Source: Rhodovulum steppense (GTDB lineage Bacteria > Pseudomonadota > Alphaproteobacteria > Rhodobacterales > Rhodobacteraceae). From it: DNA of 64,000 nucleotides. Shown here one piece after another: positions 9,016 through 47,307 of the stretch. A program made the position numbers and the translations under genes. Positions within the stretch are counted from its first letter, which is position 1; every line of letters begins with the position of its first letter. The DNA lies in the NCBI RefSeq assembly GCF_004339675.1, contig NZ_SLVM01000003.1, forward strand, positions 62,001 through 126,000. The letters are read 5' to 3'. The notes beneath the pieces are model-generated. The model was given only the letters and a program-made list of their open reading frames with translations, made no database searches and was not told where the DNA came from.

Positions 9016-10497
9016 ATGATCGAACGCAGGGATTTCTACATCGGCGGCGCGTGGGTCGCACCGCAGTCTGGCGCCGCTTGCGACGTGATCGACCCCTCGA
9101 CCGAGGAGCCGTTCGCGGTGATCTCGCTGGGCGGGCAGGCCGATACCGACGCCGCCGTGGCCGCCGCCCGCGCCGCGCAGCCGGGCTGGGCCGCAACGTC
9201 CAAGGCCGAGCGTTCCGAACTGCTGGCGCGCATCCTCGGGCTCTACAAGGCGCGCGCCGAGGATCTGGCCCAGGCGATGAGCCGCGAGATGGGCGCGCCC
9301 ATCGACTTTGCCCGCACCAGCCAGGTCGGGGCGGGGGCCTGGCATATCAAGAGCTTCATCCACGCGCTGGACATGTTCGAGTTCGACCGCCCGCTGGGAT
9401 CGCATGCGCCCGGCGACCGCATCCTGATGGATCCGGTGGGGGTCGTGGGCATGATCACGCCCTGGAACTGGCCGATGAACCAGATCACGCTCAAGGTGAT
9501 CCCGGCGCTGGCCACGGGCTGCACGATGGTTCTGAAACCGTCGGAAATCGCGCCGCTCTCGGCGATGATCTTTGCCGAGATCCTGCATGAGGCGGGCGTG
9601 CCGCCGGGTGTCTTCAACCTGGTGAACGGCGACGGGCCGGGGGTGGGCACGCAGCTGTCGGGCCATCCCGATATCGACATGATCTCGTTCACCGGCTCGA
9701 CCCGGGCGGGCATCGCGATCTCGAAGAACGCCGCCGATACGCTGAAGCGGGTACATCTGGAACTGGGCGGCAAGGGTGCGAACCTGATCTTCGCCGATGC
9801 CGACGACACGGCGGTGAAACGCGGCGTGCTGCATTGCTTCCAGAATACCGGGCAATCCTGCAACGCGCCGACGCGGATGCTGGTCGAGCGGGCGGTCTAT
9901 GACGCGGCCGTGGAAACCGCCCGCGCCGTCGCCGAAAAGATGGAGGTCGGCCCCGCCGACCGCGAGGGCCGCCATATTGGCCCGCTGGTCAGCGCGACGC
10001 AGTTCGACAAGGTGCAGGCGCTGATCCAGACCGGCATCGACGAGGGCGCGCGGCTGGTCGCGGGCGGGCCGGGACGGCCCGAGGGCGTCAACCGGGGGTA
10101 TTTCGTGCGGCCCACGGTCTTTGCCGATGTGACCAACGCCATGACCATCGCGCGCGAGGAGATCTTCGGCCCCGTGCTGTCGATCATCCCCTTCGACAGC
10201 GAGGAGGAGGCGGTCACGATCGCCAATGACACCGAATACGGGCTGACCAACTATGTGCAGTCCCAGGACGGCGCGCGCTGCAACCGGCTGGCCCGGCGCC
10301 TGCGCGCAGGCATGGTCGAGATGAACGGCGCTTCGCGCGGCGTGGGCAGTCCGTTCGGCGGCGTGAAACGGTCGGGCAACGGGCGCGAGGGCGGCATCTG
10401 GGGGCTGGAGGAATTCTGCGAGGTCAAGGCCGTCAGCGGCTGGCACGAGGAAGCGGCTTGCCATACCCACGGGCATGGCGGCTGCGACTGCTGCTGA
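9016..10497 (+). CDS. NAD(P)-dependent aldehyde dehydrogenase with His/Cys-rich tail
   Basis: 493-residue ALDH-superfamily enzyme. Motifs: TPWNWPMNQ (cofactor site), FTGSTRAG, the general-base Glu in LELGGKG, and the nucleophile Cys282 in NTGQSCNAPTRM; EEIFGPVL follows. Substrate unknown. The last twelve residues (482-493, CHTHGHGGCDCC) form a His/Cys-rich tail beyond the normal end of the fold, resembling a metal-binding peptide. A GGGGGGAG ribosome site precedes the ATG. It stands alone, between the pnp terminator and a convergent pseudouridine-synthase gene. Confidence 0.93.
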   Translation: MIERRDFYIGGAWVAPQSGAACDVIDPSTEEPFAVISLGGQADTDAAVAAARAAQPGWAATSKAERSELLARILGLYKARAEDLAQAMSREMGAPIDFARTSQVGAGAWHIKSFIHALDMFEFDRPLGSHAPGDRILMDPVGVVGMITPWNWPMNQITLKVIPALATGCTMVLKPSEIAPLSAMIFAEILHEAGVPPGVFNLVNGDGPGVGTQLSGHPDIDMISFTGSTRAGIAISKNAADTLKRVHLELGGKGANLIFADADDTAVKRGVLHCFQNTGQSCNAPTRMLVERAVYDAAVETARAVAEKMEVGPADREGRHIGPLVSATQFDKVQALIQTGIDEGARLVAGGPGRPEGVNRGYFVRPTVFADVTNAMTIAREEIFGPVLSIIPFDSEEEAVTIANDTEYGLTNYVQSQDGARCNRLARRLRAGMVEMNGASRGVGSPFGGVKRSGNGREGGIWGLEEFCEVKAVSGWHEEAACHTHGHGGCDCC

Positions 10498-10502
10498 ATC
10501 GA

Positions 10503-10618
10503 GCGCCTGCGGCGCACGCCGTTTCATTGGCGCCCTTGCGGGCGCGGTTCGGGTATTTGGACCAAGAAGAAGCCCATGGGTTTTCTTCCTGACAGAAATA
10601 CCCGCCCGCCGCAGGCGC
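10503..10618. repeat. Head-to-head pair of hairpin + GGGTATTT...CAAGAAGAAG elements
   Basis: On the + strand two small hairpins (GCGCC/GGCGC at 10503-10515 and GCGCCC/GGGCGC at 10530-10545) are followed by GGGTATTT-GGAC-CAAGAAGAAG at 10551-10572, downstream of the aldehyde dehydrogenase. On the - strand (10617 down to 10579) a CGCC/GGCG hairpin is followed by GGGTATTT-CTGT-CAGGAAGAAA, downstream of the pseudouridine synthase. The two arms together form an inverted repeat. A third copy sits after dnaN at 47263-47307. Confidence 0.7.
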
Positions 10619-10641
10619 ACCGGCCGGCAGGGTCGGCCCGG

Positions 10642-11289
10642 TCAGAACGGGCAGTCGGCGCGGAACGCCATGCCCTGTCCGCCCTCGGGATGGCGCAGGC
10701 GCAGTTCCTCGGCATGCAGCATCATCCTTGGCGCCTCGCGCGCCGGACCGTCGGCATAGAAGGGATCGCCGAGGATCGGGTGGCCGATCTCGCGCATGTG
10801 GACGCGAAGCTGGTGGCTGCGCCCGGTCCTGGGGAACAGGCGCACGCGGGTCGTTCCGCCCTCGTGGCGCAGCACGCGCCAGTCGGTGATCGCCTGCTTG
10901 CCCTTCGCGTGGTCGACCATCTGCAGCGGGCGGTTCGGCCAGTCGACGATCAGCGGCAGATCGACTGTTCCGGTCTTCGGTTCGAGCAGGCCCCAGAGCC
11001 GCGCGACATAGGTCTTCTTGGTCTGCCGCTTCTCGAATTGCAGGCCGAGATGGCGCTGGGCCTGGGGCGTCAGGGCAAAGATCATCACGCCCGAAGTGTC
11101 GCGGTCCAGCCGGTGGACCAGAAGCGCCTCGGGAAAGGCGGCCTGAACGCGCGAGAGCAGGCAATCGGCCAGATGTGCACCCTTGCCCGGCACCGACAAC
11201 AGGCCATGCGGCTTGTTCACGACAAGCAGCGCGTGATCGAGGTGGATCACCTCGAGCGGGGTATCGGGGGGGGCGTAATCTTCGCTCAT
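10642..11289 (-). CDS. RluA-family pseudouridine synthase
   Basis: 215 residues. The catalytic signature HRLDRDTSG (59-67, Asp61 or Asp62 the nucleophile) and the LFPRTGRSHQLRVHMREIGHPILGDPFY segment near 165-195 define the RluA family, closest in style to the RluA (23S U746/tRNA U32) type. There is no S4 domain at the N-terminus, as expected for RluA proper. The start at 11289 (MSEDYAPP) is preferred; an in-frame start 36 bases upstream is possible. It may be the last gene of the leftward run crtI-crtB-tspO-msrC. Confidence 0.9.
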   Translation of the reverse strand: MSEDYAPPDTPLEVIHLDHALLVVNKPHGLLSVPGKGAHLADCLLSRVQAAFPEALLVHRLDRDTSGVMIFALTPQAQRHLGLQFEKRQTKKTYVARLWGLLEPKTGTVDLPLIVDWPNRPLQMVDHAKGKQAITDWRVLRHEGGTTRVRLFPRTGRSHQLRVHMREIGHPILGDPFYADGPAREAPRMMLHAEELRLRHPEGGQGMAFRADCPF

Positions 11290-11331
11290 GCGCCGGGCGG
11301 TAGCGGGTTCAGGACCGCCGTGCAACCGGGC

Positions 11332-13370: not shown

Positions 13371-14939
13371 TCAGCCTGCCGTCACGGAGGCGGCATCCGG
13401 CACCAGCCTGGCCATCACCTCGGCCGAGGTGATCACGCTGGGCAGGCCCGCGCCGGGATGGGTTCCGGCACCGACCATGTATAGGCCGTCGACCTCCTCC
13501 GAGATGTTGTGGGGGCGGAAATTCGCGCTCTGGAAGATCCGCGGCTCCAGCGAGAAGCCCGCGCCATAGGGCGAGAGGTAGCGGTCGCGGAAATCCTCGG
13601 GCGTGAAGAACAGGCTGGTGGAGACATGCTTGCCCAGTCCCGGCATCAGCTTGTCTTCCATGAAATCCTGCACCGCCTGGCGATAGCGTTCGCCATTGGC
13701 CTTCCAGTCCACGGGGCTGTCTGTGTGCAGATTCGGCACCGGAGAGAGCGCATAGAAGGTGTCGTCGCCCTCGGGCGCGGCGCTGGGGTCGGTGACGCTG
13801 GGCCGGTGGATGTAAAGGCTCATGTCATCGCACAGCTTTTCCTGGTGGAAGAAGATGTCGTTGACGAGGCCCTTGTAGCGCGGGCCGTTCAGCACCGTGT
13901 GATGGCCCACGTCCTTCCACATCCCCCGCGTTCCCTTCGTCCCGAAATACCAGACGAACAGGCCCATCGACCAACGTTTCTTCGCCAGCGATTCGTCGGT
14001 CCAGCGCCAGCGGCGGTGGTTTCTGAGAAGCGTGTTGTAGGTAAAGCCCGAATCGGCGTTCGAGACCACGATATCGGCCTTGACCACCTCGCCCGAGGCA
14101 AGGCGGACGCCCGTGGCCTTGTGCGAATGGGGGAGCCGTTCGACGAGGATCTCGTCGACCTCGGTGCCCATGCGCATCACGCCGCCCTGCCCCTCGATCA
14201 CGCCGGCCATGGCCTTGGCGATCGCGGCGACGCCGCCCATCGCGTAATGCACCCCGAATTCCTTTTCGAGGTAGCTGACGAGGATATACATCGAGGTCAC
14301 GTTGAACGGATCGCCGCCGATGAACAGCGGGTGGAAGGACAGCGCCATGCGCAGGCGTTCGTCCTTTACCCGGCTGGCGGCATGGGCATAGACCGACTTG
14401 TCGGCGCGCAGCATCCCGAAGATGTGCAGCACCTTCACCAGGTCCATCCACTTGTGCATCGGTTTGCGGCCGAGATTCTCGAAGCCGAACCAGTAGCGTT
14501 TCTCGCTGTCCTTCAGGAACTGGTCATAGCCCGCAAGGTCCGAGGGCGACAGGCGGGCCACCTCGGCGCGCATGCCGTCGGTATCCTGCTGCGCGCGGAA
14601 TCGTTCGCCGTCGGGGAAGACGATCTCGTAGAAAGGGTCCATCGGGACCAGCTTGACGTCCTTGTCGAAATCGCGCCCGCAGACCTCCCAGAGCGAGCGG
14701 AAGATCTGCGGGACCGTCACGATGGTCGGGCCAAGGTCGAAGCGGTGGCCGTCCTGCCAGATCGCCGAGCCGCGCCCGCCGGGCACGTCGAGCTTGTCGA
14801 TCACGGTGACGCGATAGCCCTTGGCGCCAAGGCGCATGGCCGCGGCGAGACCGCCAAGCCCCGCCCCGATCACGACCGCATGCGGACCAGCGGCCCGGAC
14901 TGCTTCCTCCGCCAGGGCGGGATCAACTCGTGTCATCAT
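13371..14939 (-). CDS. crtI: Phytoene desaturase
   Basis: 522 residues. FAD-dependent desaturation of phytoene towards neurosporene/lycopene. The N-terminal dinucleotide fold is VVIGAGLGGLAAAMRL (GAGLGG at 25-30) with the VIDKLDVPGGRG acidic turn. The C-terminal carotenoid-oxidoreductase signature is YMVGAGTHPGAGLPSVITSA. Two adjacent ATGs (14939 and 14936) are possible starts. It is transcribed divergently from crtA; a PpsR box lies 17 bases upstream of the start codon. Confidence 0.98.
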   Translation of the reverse strand: MMTRVDPALAEEAVRAAGPHAVVIGAGLGGLAAAMRLGAKGYRVTVIDKLDVPGGRGSAIWQDGHRFDLGPTIVTVPQIFRSLWEVCGRDFDKDVKLVPMDPFYEIVFPDGERFRAQQDTDGMRAEVARLSPSDLAGYDQFLKDSEKRYWFGFENLGRKPMHKWMDLVKVLHIFGMLRADKSVYAHAASRVKDERLRMALSFHPLFIGGDPFNVTSMYILVSYLEKEFGVHYAMGGVAAIAKAMAGVIEGQGGVMRMGTEVDEILVERLPHSHKATGVRLASGEVVKADIVVSNADSGFTYNTLLRNHRRWRWTDESLAKKRWSMGLFVWYFGTKGTRGMWKDVGHHTVLNGPRYKGLVNDIFFHQEKLCDDMSLYIHRPSVTDPSAAPEGDDTFYALSPVPNLHTDSPVDWKANGERYRQAVQDFMEDKLMPGLGKHVSTSLFFTPEDFRDRYLSPYGAGFSLEPRIFQSANFRPHNISEEVDGLYMVGAGTHPGAGLPSVITSAEVMARLVPDAASVTAG

Positions 14940-14955
14940 GTCGCTAGGTTAAACC

Positions 14956-14973
14956 TGTCTAGTTTAGTTTACA
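14956..14973. promoter_or_regulatory. PpsR/CrtJ operator in crtI-crtA spacer
   Basis: TGTCTAGTTTAGTTTACA, a perfect TGT-N12-ACA match to the PpsR/CrtJ recognition palindrome, in the 129-base divergent spacer. It is placed to act on crtI (17 bases from its start codon) and possibly crtA. Known PpsR targets include the crt genes; occupancy here is inferred. Confidence 0.8.
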
Positions 14974-15068
14974 ATGCTTCTACCGGATGCGCGCCGGGTG
15001 CGTCATGTCCCTTTCGGTCGCACCTCGAACTGACATAGACGAACGACAGCTGCGAAGGAGAATCGCCA

Positions 15069-15878
15069 ATGCAAGTCGTCACCATCAGCTTCTTCCGTTA
15101 CAACAACTGGGCGTCCCGACTCGAGGCGCTCAGCCAGATGGCGCGCGGCCGCTTCGCGCTGAAGAATGTGCCGGGGCTGGAATTTTTCAAGATGCTCGGC
15201 ACCGGCTCGGACGCGGGTTTCAACCCCAAGCCCAATGTCGACGTCAACGCGATCCTGTGCGTCTGGCCGGACATGGCGACCGCGAAGAAGGGGCTGAAGG
15301 AAAGCATCACCCATCGCATGCTGCGCGACCATTCCTGCGAGACCTACACGATCTACCTGACGCCGATCTCGGCCAAGGGGCTGTGGTCCGGCGTCGAGCC
15401 GCTGCGGGTCAGCGAAAAGCCCGACGCAAACGGCAAGATGGCGGTGCTGACGCGCGCCACCGTCAAGCTGCCCATCGCGCTGAAATTCTGGGCCGAGGTG
15501 CCGCAGATCCAGTCGCTGGTGGCCGAACACCCGAACTGCGCCTTCCATATCGGCATGGCCGAGGTGCCCTGGGTGCAGCAGGTGACCTTCTCGCTGTGGA
15601 ACGACAAGCGCGAGATGACGACCTTTGCCCATGGCGATTGTCCGCATGGCCGCGCGGTGCAGCATGTCCGCGAAGGCAACTGGTTCAAGGAAGAGCTGTA
15701 TGCGCGCTTCAACATCCTCGAAGAAGAGGGTAGTTGGGAAGGCGGGAGCCCGCTGAAGCGGCTGGATGCACCGAAGTCGGCGCCCGAGACCAAGGCCCAA
15801 CCCAAGGCCGAGACATCGACGGACAAGGCGGCGCCGGGCAAGTCCAAGGCGCCCAGGAAATCGAAAGAGACTGCATGA
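15069..15878 (+). CDS. crtA: Spheroidene monooxygenase
   Basis: 269 residues. Inserts a keto group at C2 of spheroidene/hydroxyspheroidene, giving the red spheroidenone series in the presence of oxygen. N-terminal FFRYNNWASRLEALSQM and WVQQVTFSLWND, plus HGDCPHGRAVQHVREGNWF near 195-215, are typical of the family. The last 40 or so residues are Ala/Lys/Pro-rich (APKSAPETKAQPKAETS and similar), a low-complexity tail probably not needed for catalysis. The RBS GAAGGAG precedes the ATG by about 8 bases. It overlaps bchI by 4 bases (ATGA). Confidence 0.96.
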   Translation: MQVVTISFFRYNNWASRLEALSQMARGRFALKNVPGLEFFKMLGTGSDAGFNPKPNVDVNAILCVWPDMATAKKGLKESITHRMLRDHSCETYTIYLTPISAKGLWSGVEPLRVSEKPDANGKMAVLTRATVKLPIALKFWAEVPQIQSLVAEHPNCAFHIGMAEVPWVQQVTFSLWNDKREMTTFAHGDCPHGRAVQHVREGNWFKEELYARFNILEEEGSWEGGSPLKRLDAPKSAPETKAQPKAETSTDKAAPGKSKAPRKSKETA

Positions 15879-16888
15879 GACAACCCTTTCCCTTCTCCGC
15901 CATCGTCGGGCAGGAGGAGATGAAGCAGGCGATGATCCTCACGGCAATCGACCCGGGGATCGGCGGCGTTCTTGTGTTCGGCGACCGCGGCACCGGCAAG
16001 TCGACCGCCGTCCGCGCGCTGGCAGCCCTTCTGCCGCCGATCCAGGCGGTGGAAAGCTGTCCGGTGAATTCGCCCTCGCGCGATCAGTGCCCGGAATGGG
16101 CGCACCTGACCTCGACCGCGATCATCACGCGGCCCACGCCCGTCGTGGACCTGCCGCTGGGCGTGACCGAGGACCGGGTGGTGGGGGCGCTCGACATCGA
16201 GAAGGCCCTGTCCTCGGGCGTCAAGGCGTTCGAGCCGGGCCTTCTGGCGCGGGCCAACAGGGGCTACCTCTATATCGACGAGGTGAACCTGCTGGAGGAT
16301 CACATCGTCGACCTGCTTCTTGACGTCGCCCAGTCGGGCGAGAACGTGGTGGAACGGGAAGGGCTGTCGATCCGGCACCCGGCGCGCTTCGTGCTCGTCG
16401 GGTCCGGCAACCCCGAGGAGGGCGAGTTGCGCCCGCAATTGCTGGACCGCTTCGGCCTGTCGGTCGAGGTGGTCTCGCCCAAGGATGTCGACACGCGGAT
16501 CGAGGTGATCCGCCGCCGCGACACCTACGAGACCGATTTCGATGCGTTCATGGAGAAGTGGCGCCCGGCCGATGCCGAACTGCGCGACCGGATCCTTGCC
16601 GCGCGAGCGCATCTGAAGACCATGGAAAGTTCGGACGACGTGCTGCGCGACTGCGCGGAACTGTGCCTTGCGCTGGGCTCGGACGGGCTTCGGGGCGAAC
16701 TCACGCTGCTCAAGGCCGCGCGCGCGCTGGCTGCCTTCGAGGGGGCCGACAAGGTCAACCGCGAGCATGTGCGCAAGGTCGCGCCTTCGGCGCTGCGCCA
16801 CCGGCTGCGGCGCGATCCGCTGGACGAGGCGGGCTCTACCACGCGCGTTGCCCGTGTCGTCGACGAGGTGCTGGGTGAGCCTGCCTGA
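15875..16888 (+). CDS. bchI: Magnesium chelatase subunit I
   Basis: 337-residue AAA+ ATPase that with BchD drives Mg insertion by BchH. Walker A GDRGTGKST (36-44), Walker B YLYIDEVNLLED, and the sensor region VGSGNPEEGELRPQLLDRFGL are all present. The start is the ATG overlapping the crtA stop; it gives MRQPFPFSAIVGQ, matching the family N-terminus. The 3' end overlaps bchD by 14 bases. Confidence 0.98.
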   Translation: MRQPFPFSAIVGQEEMKQAMILTAIDPGIGGVLVFGDRGTGKSTAVRALAALLPPIQAVESCPVNSPSRDQCPEWAHLTSTAIITRPTPVVDLPLGVTEDRVVGALDIEKALSSGVKAFEPGLLARANRGYLYIDEVNLLEDHIVDLLLDVAQSGENVVEREGLSIRHPARFVLVGSGNPEEGELRPQLLDRFGLSVEVVSPKDVDTRIEVIRRRDTYETDFDAFMEKWRPADAELRDRILAARAHLKTMESSDDVLRDCAELCLALGSDGLRGELTLLKAARALAAFEGADKVNREHVRKVAPSALRHRLRRDPLDEAGSTTRVARVVDEVLGEPA

Positions 16889-18581
16889 CAATTCCGTCTG
16901 GACCCGGGTCGAGGTCGGCCTGAACGCGCTGGCCGTCGATCCGGTGGGGCTGGGGGGGCTGTGGCTGCGCGCGCGGTCCGGCCCCGTCCGCGACCGCGTG
17001 ACCGAGGCGCTGGGGGGCCTTCCCCTGCCGCTGAAACGGCTGCATCCGTCCATCGGCGACGACCAGCTTTTCGGCAGCATCGACCTGACCGCCACGCTGT
17101 CCTCGGGCAAGCTGGTGGAACGGGCGGGCATCCTGGCCCAGCCCGCCGTTCTGGTCCTGCCGATGGCAGAACGCACCCAGCCGGGCCTGGCCGCACGGCT
17201 GGCGGGCGCGCTGGACCAGGGGACCGGGCATTGCCTGATCGCGCTGGACGAGGGCGCCGAGCCCGGCGAGACCCTGCCCGAGGCGCTGACCGACCGGCTG
17301 GCGCTGCATGTCGATCTGGACGCCCTGCCCTGGGGCGAGACCGACCGGATCGTGCTGGACCAGGCCGCACTGGCCGAGGCGCGCGACCGGCTGCCCGGTA
17401 TCCGCGCCTCGGGCAAGGTGCTCGAAGACCTGACGCTGCTGGCCGTCCGGCTGGGCGTTCACAGCCTGCGCGCGCCGATGCTGACGCTGCGCACCGCGCG
17501 CGCCCTGGCCGCCATCGCGGGTAGTGACGAGGTGGGCGTGGACGACCTGAAAGCGGCGGTGGAACTGGTGCTGGCGCCCCGGGCGACCCAGTTTCCCGAG
17601 GCCGAAGACGACCAGCCCCCCGAGCAACCGCCCGACCAGCCCCCGCCCGAGCCGGAACCCGAAAAGGGCGAGCAAGACGAGGGCGAGGGCCAGTCGCTGG
17701 ACGATCTGCCCTTGCAGGACATCCTGCTGGAGGCCGCCAGGGCCACCCTGCCCGCCGACCTGCTGGCCATGCTGGCGGCGAAACGGGCCAACCGGGGCGG
17801 CGGCGGCAATTCCGGCGCGGGAGCCAAGCGCAAGGGCAACCGACGCGGACGGCCGATCCCCTCGCGGCGCGGGCGGCTGGAAACCGGCGCGCGGCTGGAC
17901 GTGATCTCGACCCTGCGCGCGGCCGCGCCGTGGCAGACCATCCGCAAGCAGGAAAGCCGGTTCGAGCGGTCGCTGCACATCCGGTCCGACGATTTCCGCA
18001 TCAAGCGGTTCGAGGAGAAATCCGACCGTCTGCTGATCTTCGTGGTGGACGCCTCGGGCTCGGCGGCGATGACCCGGCTGGCCGAGGCCAAGGGCGCGGT
18101 CGAACTCTTGCTGGCCGAAGCCTATGCGCGGCGCGACCATGTCGCGCTGGTGGCTTTCCGGGGCGAGGGGGCGGAACTGCTGCTGCCGCCCACGCGATCG
18201 CTGGTGCAGACCAAGCGGCGGCTGGCGGCCCTGCCCGGCGGGGGCGGCACGCCGCTGGCCGCGGGGCTGAAGGTGGCGCTGGAGGTCGCGATCCAGTCCA
18301 AGGGGCGCGGCATGACGCCCACCGTGGCGCTGCTGACCGACGGGCGGGCCAATATCGCGCTGGACGGGTCGGCCAACCGGACGCTGGCAGGCGAGGATGC
18401 CGAGCGCATGGCCACCGCGATCCGGTTGCAGGGCTTCCCCTCGATGGTGATCGACATGGGCCAGCGGCCCGAACGCTCGCTCAAGGCGCTGGCCGACACG
18501 CTGGGCGCCCCCTACATTCCGTTGCCAAGGGCCGATGCGAACCGGCTGTCCTCTGCCGTGTCGGCCGCCCTCGACGCCTAG
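16875..18581 (+). CDS. bchD: Magnesium chelatase subunit D
   Basis: 568 residues. N-terminal AAA-like domain without an intact P-loop (usual for BchD), a Pro/Glu-rich linker near residues 240-275, and a C-terminal von Willebrand A (integrin I) domain with the MIDAS motif DASGS at 392-396. Starts with GTG (SLPDNSVW) inside the end of bchI; upstream in-frame sequence is bchI read in another frame and is not family-like. Bridges BchI hexamers to BchH. Confidence 0.96.
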   Translation: MSLPDNSVWTRVEVGLNALAVDPVGLGGLWLRARSGPVRDRVTEALGGLPLPLKRLHPSIGDDQLFGSIDLTATLSSGKLVERAGILAQPAVLVLPMAERTQPGLAARLAGALDQGTGHCLIALDEGAEPGETLPEALTDRLALHVDLDALPWGETDRIVLDQAALAEARDRLPGIRASGKVLEDLTLLAVRLGVHSLRAPMLTLRTARALAAIAGSDEVGVDDLKAAVELVLAPRATQFPEAEDDQPPEQPPDQPPPEPEPEKGEQDEGEGQSLDDLPLQDILLEAARATLPADLLAMLAAKRANRGGGGNSGAGAKRKGNRRGRPIPSRRGRLETGARLDVISTLRAAAPWQTIRKQESRFERSLHIRSDDFRIKRFEEKSDRLLIFVVDASGSAAMTRLAEAKGAVELLLAEAYARRDHVALVAFRGEGAELLLPPTRSLVQTKRRLAALPGGGGTPLAAGLKVALEVAIQSKGRGMTPTVALLTDGRANIALDGSANRTLAGEDAERMATAIRLQGFPSMVIDMGQRPERSLKALADTLGAPYIPLPRADANRLSSAVSAALDA

Positions 18582-47262: not shown

Positions 47263-47307
47263 GTCCTTCTTCTGGCCGGAAATATCCCCGCCGGAGGCAA
47301 TCCGGCG
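47263..47307 (-). repeat. Hairpin + GGGATATTT...CAGAAGAAG element after dnaN
   Basis: On the - strand: 7-bp stem CGCCGGA/TCCGGCG with loop TTGCC (47289-47307), then GGGATATTT-CCGGC-CAGAAGAAGG ending at 47263. Same design as the two copies at 10503-10618. Begins 9 bases after the dnaN stop and ends 6 bases before the recF start. Confidence 0.7.

Follow-up and report, generated by a model that had tools for sequence, protein, structure and literature searches.

REP and BIME elements are extragenic repeats that lie in convergent and tandem gaps, often as inverted pairs; they are lineage-specific, number about 100 copies and consist of a palindromic hairpin with a GTAG-type foot. DNA uptake sequences form dialects by clade, and protein roadblock terminators, such as the Reb1 and mTERF sites, would depend on a site at transcript ends that is about 20 bp long and asymmetric. 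Here, we describe an element at gene ends of Rhodovulum steppense, recognized in a stretch of 64,000 nucleotides that was analysed as a whole (the window), which shares features with each of these systems and differs from each.

Two copies of the element lie in the 144 nt gap (positions 10498–10641) between the convergent genes for an aldehyde dehydrogenase (9016–10497, forward strand; PF00171) and a pseudouridine synthase (10642–11325, reverse strand; PF00849), with their tails facing each other. A small GC hairpin, GCGCC-TGC-GGCGC (10503–10515, forward strand), is found 3' of the dehydrogenase stop codon; five of the six aligned species have a CTTTT run after it, and R. steppense itself lacks the run. 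A further GC hairpin, GCGCCC-TTGC-GGGCGC (10530–10545, forward strand), lies immediately 5' of copy 1, and by reading its letters differ in the same gap of relatives with the GC stem kept. Copy 1, located by pattern matches (10551–10572, forward strand), reads GGGTATTTGGACCAAGAAGAAG and has the A-type core GGGTATTT-GGA-CCAAGAAGAAG. Its tail is separated by 9 nt (10573–10581) from that of copy 2 (10582–10603, reverse strand), which reads GGGTATTTCTGTCAGGAAGAAA and has the variant core GGGTATTT-CTG-TCAGGAAGAAA. This core departs from that of the family in R. steppense, and the copy reads TATTTCTGCCAAGAAGAA in genome G008. A GC hairpin, GCGCCTGCGGCG (10607–10618, reverse strand), stands 5' of copy 2, and both copies of the gap have GC hairpins on their outer side. 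Across the six-species alignment TATTTGG(A/G)CCAAGAAGAAGC is invariant and the hairpin letters change.

As judged by reading, a copy in the sense direction of the dehydrogenase is present in six of 16 genus genomes (G000, G007, G008, G004, G013 and G002), in two of which copy 1 is spelled GAGTATTT, with GAG replacing GGG. Only the opposite-strand copy is found in the gap of G006, the convergent gap of G003 and G009 holds no copy at all and the remaining seven genomes have different neighbours beside the dehydrogenase. A search of the whole window against Rfam 15 gave no match at the gathering score; the four matches around the site (E values of 0.87–9.3) all fell under it. Elsewhere in the window, positions 13371–18581 hold genes that we take, from the starts of their proteins, to be of carotenoid and bacteriochlorophyll type and which fit a phototrophic Rhodovulum-like host.

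The third copy in the window, GGATATTTCCGGCCAGAAGAAG (47266–47287, reverse strand), follows dnaN (PF00712/02767/02768) at a distance of 28 nt and precedes a RecF/SMC-type gene. It has the B-type core GGATATTT-CCGG-CCAGAAGAAG and a mini-hairpin, GCC-TCC-GGC, just 5' of it (47290–47298, reverse strand). The first-pass annotation had located all three copies correctly and had taken them for a repeated, family-specific element, which they are on a far larger scale than three: the core GG(G/A)TATTT-N3/4-CCA(A)GAAGAA(G/A) occurs in about 97 copies in the 3.66 Mb genome, with no match in a reversed-pattern control. A genome scan with the exact pattern GGGTATTTN{3,6}CARGAAGAAG gave 53 matches, and 97 were found with GGGTATTTNNNCCAAGAAGAAG at up to three mismatches, against none in either control. 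The looser pattern TATTTN{5,9}GAAGAAR matched 100 times, again against none, and about 97 of these are family members by reading. The spacing from TATTT to GAAGAAR is exactly seven letters in nearly all of the 100 matches, and the starts of TATTT and GAAGAAG are 12 bp apart, which is about one helical turn.

The copies fall into two subtypes with the same block-to-block spacing. Subtype A, GGGTATTT-N3-CCA(A/G)GAAGAA(G/A), accounts for 66 of 96 copies; subtype B, mostly GGATATTT-N4-CCAGAAGAA(G/A), accounts for 26, and four belong to neither. The fixed letters have frequencies of 0.92–1.00 in both subtypes, apart from A at position −1 of B (0.88) and G as the final letter of A (0.79). The spacer, initially described as four bases, did not hold in that form: its length is nearly fixed, N3 in A and N4 in B, and its letters are widely variable; the commonest N4 is CCGG, found in 12 of the 26 B copies.

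A constant GC hairpin had also been described, and this did not hold. A perfect stem of at least 6 bp within 14 nt 5' of the core is present in 47 of 96 copies, compared with 6–14 in five shuffle sets. Another 45 copies have a stem of at most 4 bp; by reading, about 20 of them lack a hairpin, and some are multi-hairpin modules that the perfect-stem test does not credit. Since good stems are confined to these 47 copies and the class with AT(N)GGG directly 5' of the core is practically hairpin-free, we regard the hairpin as enriched but optional. Unlike the perfect-stem counts, which separate the copies from the shuffles, folding-energy z-scores over the 45 nt upstream failed to distinguish them from other gene ends (the mean z was −0.42 to −0.65 across the three main classes of copies and −0.94 in 174 control ends). 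By reading, the hairpins 5' of the cores belong to a few repeated module families. Upstream of one copy (L023, about 9500–9850) we noted a run of extremely long homopolymers of G and of C, together with Ns, probably an assembly fault at a hard GC hairpin.

Placement was determined with a gene caller retrained from 15 seed genes, of which 13 had Pfam matches and two were window genes confirmed later by Pfam. The 96 copies comprise 46 between convergent genes, 29 sense and 18 antisense copies between tandem genes and three at stretch ends. All 93 placeable copies lie beside a gene end, in agreement with the proposed location 3' of genes; none is inside a gene and none is in a divergent gap, which is why we reject a promoter function. 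Background gaps of at least 50 nt in the 20 kb stretches and the window number 157 tandem, 64 divergent and 33 convergent, although most of these stretches were picked for holding copies and are not a random sample. If copies were distributed by gap number alone the chance of 0/93 divergent would be about 2e-12, a value that treats the copies as independent, whereas some form pairs and the majority of the stretches were selected around copies. The accompanying claim of strand-specific placement was not supported: tandem copies are 29 sense to 18 antisense in R. steppense and 19 to 15 in G001, another genome of the genus. The antisense copies are real, as Pfam matches in the flanking tandem genes confirm at several sites, for example between two acyl-CoA-carboxylase-type subunits (L028) and in an AAA/CoxE-type pair (L076). 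In 13 of the 18 the tail lies 0–21 nt from the stop codon. A strict sense rule for the hairpin-free AT(N)GGG copies was considered and rejected, the ratio being 13:2 in R. steppense but 5:5 in G001.

The 63 copies of G001, where the gene calls are less certain (the caller covers 0.80–0.81 of bases), comprise 26 convergent, 19 tandem sense, 15 tandem antisense, two intragenic and one divergent; one of the two intragenic copies is by reading a chance match without GGG. In the ten close facing pairs of this genome, counted by hand, the tails are 10–16 nt apart, and in six of them the distance is 11 nt (examples are C1 539010–539058 and 3167903–3167951). Seven pairs among the matches listed for G011 have tail gaps, also counted by hand, of 8 or 17–20 nt. 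A helical-phase or loop-length rule for facing pairs is possible. Orientation with respect to the replication arms was counted by hand for 41 single G001 copies, with origin and terminus guessed from GC skew; 18 point with the arms and 23 against, so that a KOPS-type orientation is rejected.

Ordinary terminators were sought as a hairpin with a T-rich tail, the element core being masked. Between convergent genes, such a terminator is present at 12 of 54 ends that have no copy, compared with one of 47 ends whose copy, single or paired, is in sense (Fisher p = 0.0025) and one of 41 ends whose copy is antisense (Fisher p = 0.006). When only gaps of at least 80 nt are considered the counts are five of 20 without a copy, one of 35 with a sense copy (p = 0.02) and one of 29 with an antisense copy (p = 0.035). 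The rarity of T-tail terminators beside copies suggests that the element may replace the terminator between convergent genes, for both sides. No such exclusion was seen in tandem gaps, in which two of 29 ends with sense copies or both orientations have a T-tail terminator, compared with 19 of 196 without (p = 1); for tandem ends with antisense copies the count is 0 of 16.

Using a relaxed pattern, the element is present at dnaN–recF in 30 of 80 named Rhodobacteraceae species and is in the sense orientation in 29 of the 30; reversed stretches gave 0 of 80, and five shuffle sets and stretches within dnaN also gave none. With the strict pattern the figures are 15 of 80 and 14 of 15. Among the named relatives the highest DnaN identity, 94%, is that of Rhodovulum bhavnagarense. 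The dnaN–recF tails of Pseudooceanicola batsensis (GGCAAGATGAA) and Actibacterium sp. MT2.3-13A (CCAAGAAGAAG) match the commonest tails among those listed for the respective genomes. Just past the dnaN stop codon in other genera we also noted a different recurrent hairpin pair, approximately GGAATTTTTGAAAATTCC and then CCGTTTTCTTTGAAAGAAAACGG (L190, L221, L233, L259 and L260, with L241 similar by reading); in those genera the position seems to be taken by a second family of repeats.

Across 120 genomes of the family, TATTTN{5,9}GAWGAAG gave 20–151 matches in each of 53, counted by hand, and fewer or background numbers in the rest. In 51 of the 53 the count is far over the control; the controls of G072 and G129 reach 14 and 17, and these genomes lack a constant tail. 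Many Rhodobacteraceae carry the element with constant spacing and a genus-specific spelling. Among the matches listed, and by hand count, the dialect of G149 is GCAAGATGAAG (97 of 100; 151 matches counted), that of G025 is CAACGAAGAAG (26 of 33; 64 counted) and that of G177 is CCAAGATGAAG (25 of 26; 106 counted). Both N3-GCAAGATGAAG and N4-TCAGATGAAG occur in G109, paralleling the A and B types of R. steppense, and tails are mixed in some genomes, for example G250.

The order-level sample consisted of one family throughout (149 of 149). Outside the family, 141 genomes of the class have at most 18 matches each, with no constant tail among those listed; their total of 674, with 378 for the control, amounts to a modest general excess without a dialect-like pattern. 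In one genome of another family of the class (G042; contigs C1, C165 and C197) three listed matches read TATTTTGACCAAGGAAGAAG, possibly an unrelated repeat. A 42 nt query of plasmids returned 13 records, 12 from Rhodobacterales and one from Xanthomonas, with every match in a stretch without a listed gene, although the gene table is incomplete. A literature search, with subscription journals mostly outside its reach, found no description of the element, and there is none in the accessible parts of PMC5107571, PMC5089854, PMC6238624, PMC2267715, PMC7866481 and PMC1852404.

Use of the signal by phages was rejected: phage records gave one poor match, only six of 56 viral stretches matching TATTTNNNCCAAGAAGAAG have element-like contexts by reading, and the flanking proteins tested from five of the six are terminase, portal or head proteins in gene-transfer-agent-like clusters, the exception being L174, which is counted as gene-transfer-agent-like from layout similarity alone. 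With L174 included, five of six such GC-rich clusters (about 10–14 kb) have the element in the sense orientation between the large terminase and portal genes (L160, 1411–1429; L163, 12459–12504; L170, 10852–10870; L174, 12357–12375; L181, 12650–12668), one of them with an additional facing copy. In the sixth, L142, the copy is antisense and 3' of the portal gene.

Comparison with the sister species G007 indicates how the copies change. G007 has 112 matches, mostly of B type among those listed, and its flanks are mostly 90–99% identical to those of R. steppense (lowest 75%). The 70 G007 loci contain 83 matches, some double-counted through overlapping loci; 57 have an R. steppense copy in the same place and orientation, seven have one in the opposite orientation (pair partners), 15 have no R. 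steppense locus for comparison and four have no R. steppense match. Core changes were found in four R. steppense copies, three of them at unmatched G007 places and one a pair partner at L067; the fourth unmatched place gave no flank match. By reading, one of these core-changed copies has also lost hairpin complementarity (L080 versus L384). In the 40 same-type pairs the differences number 14 of 136 in the N letters, 41 of 320 in the 8 nt downstream, 16 of 480 in the 12 upstream letters and 0 of 704 in the fixed core letters, the last figure overstating the constancy of the core because the search pattern required those letters.

After deduplication the types in R. steppense and G007, in that order, are A–A in 24 cases, B–B in 16, A–B in 11, B–A in none and unusual in four, the direction of change between A and B being unpolarised. 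Each of the 11 A-to-B differences involves several simultaneous letter changes, and all are in hairpin-module copies; support is weak in three of them, with one flank only in L358 and L406 and flanks more than 1 kb apart in L425. In at least four (L390, L412, L418 and L424) the hairpin letters beside the core differ little or not at all. The simplest explanation of these differences is block replacement through gene conversion between copies; lineage-specific selection in favour of a single type is a possible alternative.

In our view, the reading that best accommodates these data, to which we would give somewhat less than an even chance, is that the 22 bp core may act sequence-specifically to end transcription units or to set their boundaries. 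A more specific version, in which TATTT-N3-CCAAGAAGAAG would be a factor-dependent termination signal read by a Rhodobacteraceae DNA- or RNA-binding factor at about 100 loci, with or without a hairpin, and with dialects that co-evolved with it, is possible but considered less likely. In the sense direction RNA polymerase would slow or release at the weak U-rich (GGG)UAUUU-NNN, assisted where present by the upstream GC hairpin; UAUUU-NNN would be the point of release or of 3' processing. A putative trans-acting factor would bind the invariant CCA(A)GAAGAAG that follows, most likely as duplex DNA; we infer such a factor because at least ten letters past any plausible release point are invariant and change in concert from genus to genus. 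Both genes of a convergent pair could be served by facing copies or by a single copy with a hairpin, and inside clusters (dnaN–recF and terminase–portal) the element would yield partial 3' ends. Homogenization of copies within each genome would produce the genus dialects.

The antisense copies are the main difficulty for a transcript-end signal: 18 stand against 29 sense copies in tandem gaps, and the copy in L142 is also antisense. Possibly they mark boundaries in both directions, or they arose through the copying itself. Also against it are the tandem gaps, in which terminators are not excluded, the lack of a good hairpin in all but 47 of 96 copies and the length of the U stretch, which is only five letters; moreover, REP-like repeats would likewise avoid promoters and genes. 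In Rhodobacter sphaeroides, the accessible part of one study reports no motif upstream of PNPase-affected RNA 3' ends, which are a subset of all 3' ends (PMC7866481).

The same observations bear on several other explanations. The near-random orientation in tandem gaps would be expected of a REP-like, non-autonomous dispersed repeat that persists 3' of genes since it is harmful elsewhere and affects transcripts only secondarily, through stem-loop protection. The few hairpin module families, the one-way A-to-B replacements in hairpin-module copies, the N4 that is often common to B copies and the BIME-like look of the facing pairs all suit this explanation, but plain copying would not be expected to leave a variable N3 between invariant flanks. 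The hairpin-free copies, the positions kept across species and the sense orientation of 29 of 30 dnaN–recF elements are further points against it, and we consider it unlikely, though a serious contender. The occurrence of both orientations could instead reflect a DNA site for a chromosome-organizing protein (boundary, gyrase or nucleoid) that collects at the ends of transcription units and takes no direct part in termination. Such a protein would suit the spacing of one helical turn within the core, the 10–16 bp between facing tails in G001 (11 in six of ten) and, if it co-evolved with its sites, the genus dialects. It would not account for the dnaN–recF sense bias or the exclusion of T-tail terminators from convergent gaps, and the orientation of the 41 single G001 copies does not follow the replication arms; we regard this explanation as rather unlikely.

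Genus dialects, few degenerate copies and facing inverted pairs at gene ends are also what would be seen if the element were a DNA-uptake-type signal of the Neisseria and Pasteurellaceae kind with a secondary use at gene ends. The accessible part of PMC1852404 places uptake sequences in terminators and gives them at least 1,000 copies, ten or so times the number found here; none of the present copies lies in a gene although the A-type core is open in all frames by reading, and an uptake signal appears very improbable. The GC hairpin before TATTT in 47 of 96 copies might suggest ordinary intrinsic terminators whose shared letters are coincidental in GC-rich DNA. The 97–100 matches against none in the controls, the invariant letters beyond the expected release point, the hairpin-free copies and the dialects of other genera all argue otherwise; as a full account this explanation is refuted by the control counts, hairpin data and dialects, and we give it hardly any weight.

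Should the element end transcripts, as many as 100 gene ends or more in each genome would escape programs that look for T-tail terminators, and this in a family that is large and of ecological importance (Rhodobacter, Rhodovulum, Paracoccus and Roseobacter relatives). How some 100 dispersed copies changed in concert into genus dialects is an evolutionary question that can now be tested, and the one-way A-to-B difference between the sister species belongs to the same question of what reads the core and how its copies are homogenized.

With intrinsic terminators the element shares a GC hairpin and a short U-rich stretch 3' of stop codons, but the hairpin is optional, a fixed UAUUU followed by variable letters replaces the run of about seven or more U, and an invariant 10–11 nt follows that intrinsic terminators do not need. 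Like REP and BIME elements it is extragenic and 3' of genes, forms inverted pairs, numbers about 100 copies and is lineage-specific; its conserved part, however, is a 22 nt core with free N3 or N4 and not a palindrome, its hairpins vary or are absent and by reading the copies listed have no GTAG foot. Clade dialects, inverted pairs at gene ends and near-perfect copies recall the DNA uptake sequences of Neisseria and Pasteurellaceae, from which it differs in its 97–100 copies, their absence from genes and the two-part core with a spacer. Unlike KOPS-type sites, its single copies in G001 do not follow the replication arm in their orientation. The candidate likeness to Reb1 and mTERF roadblock sites lies in its asymmetry, its length of about 20 bp and its position where transcripts would end, although the antisense tails that lie so close to a stop codon leave little room for a roadblock on that side.
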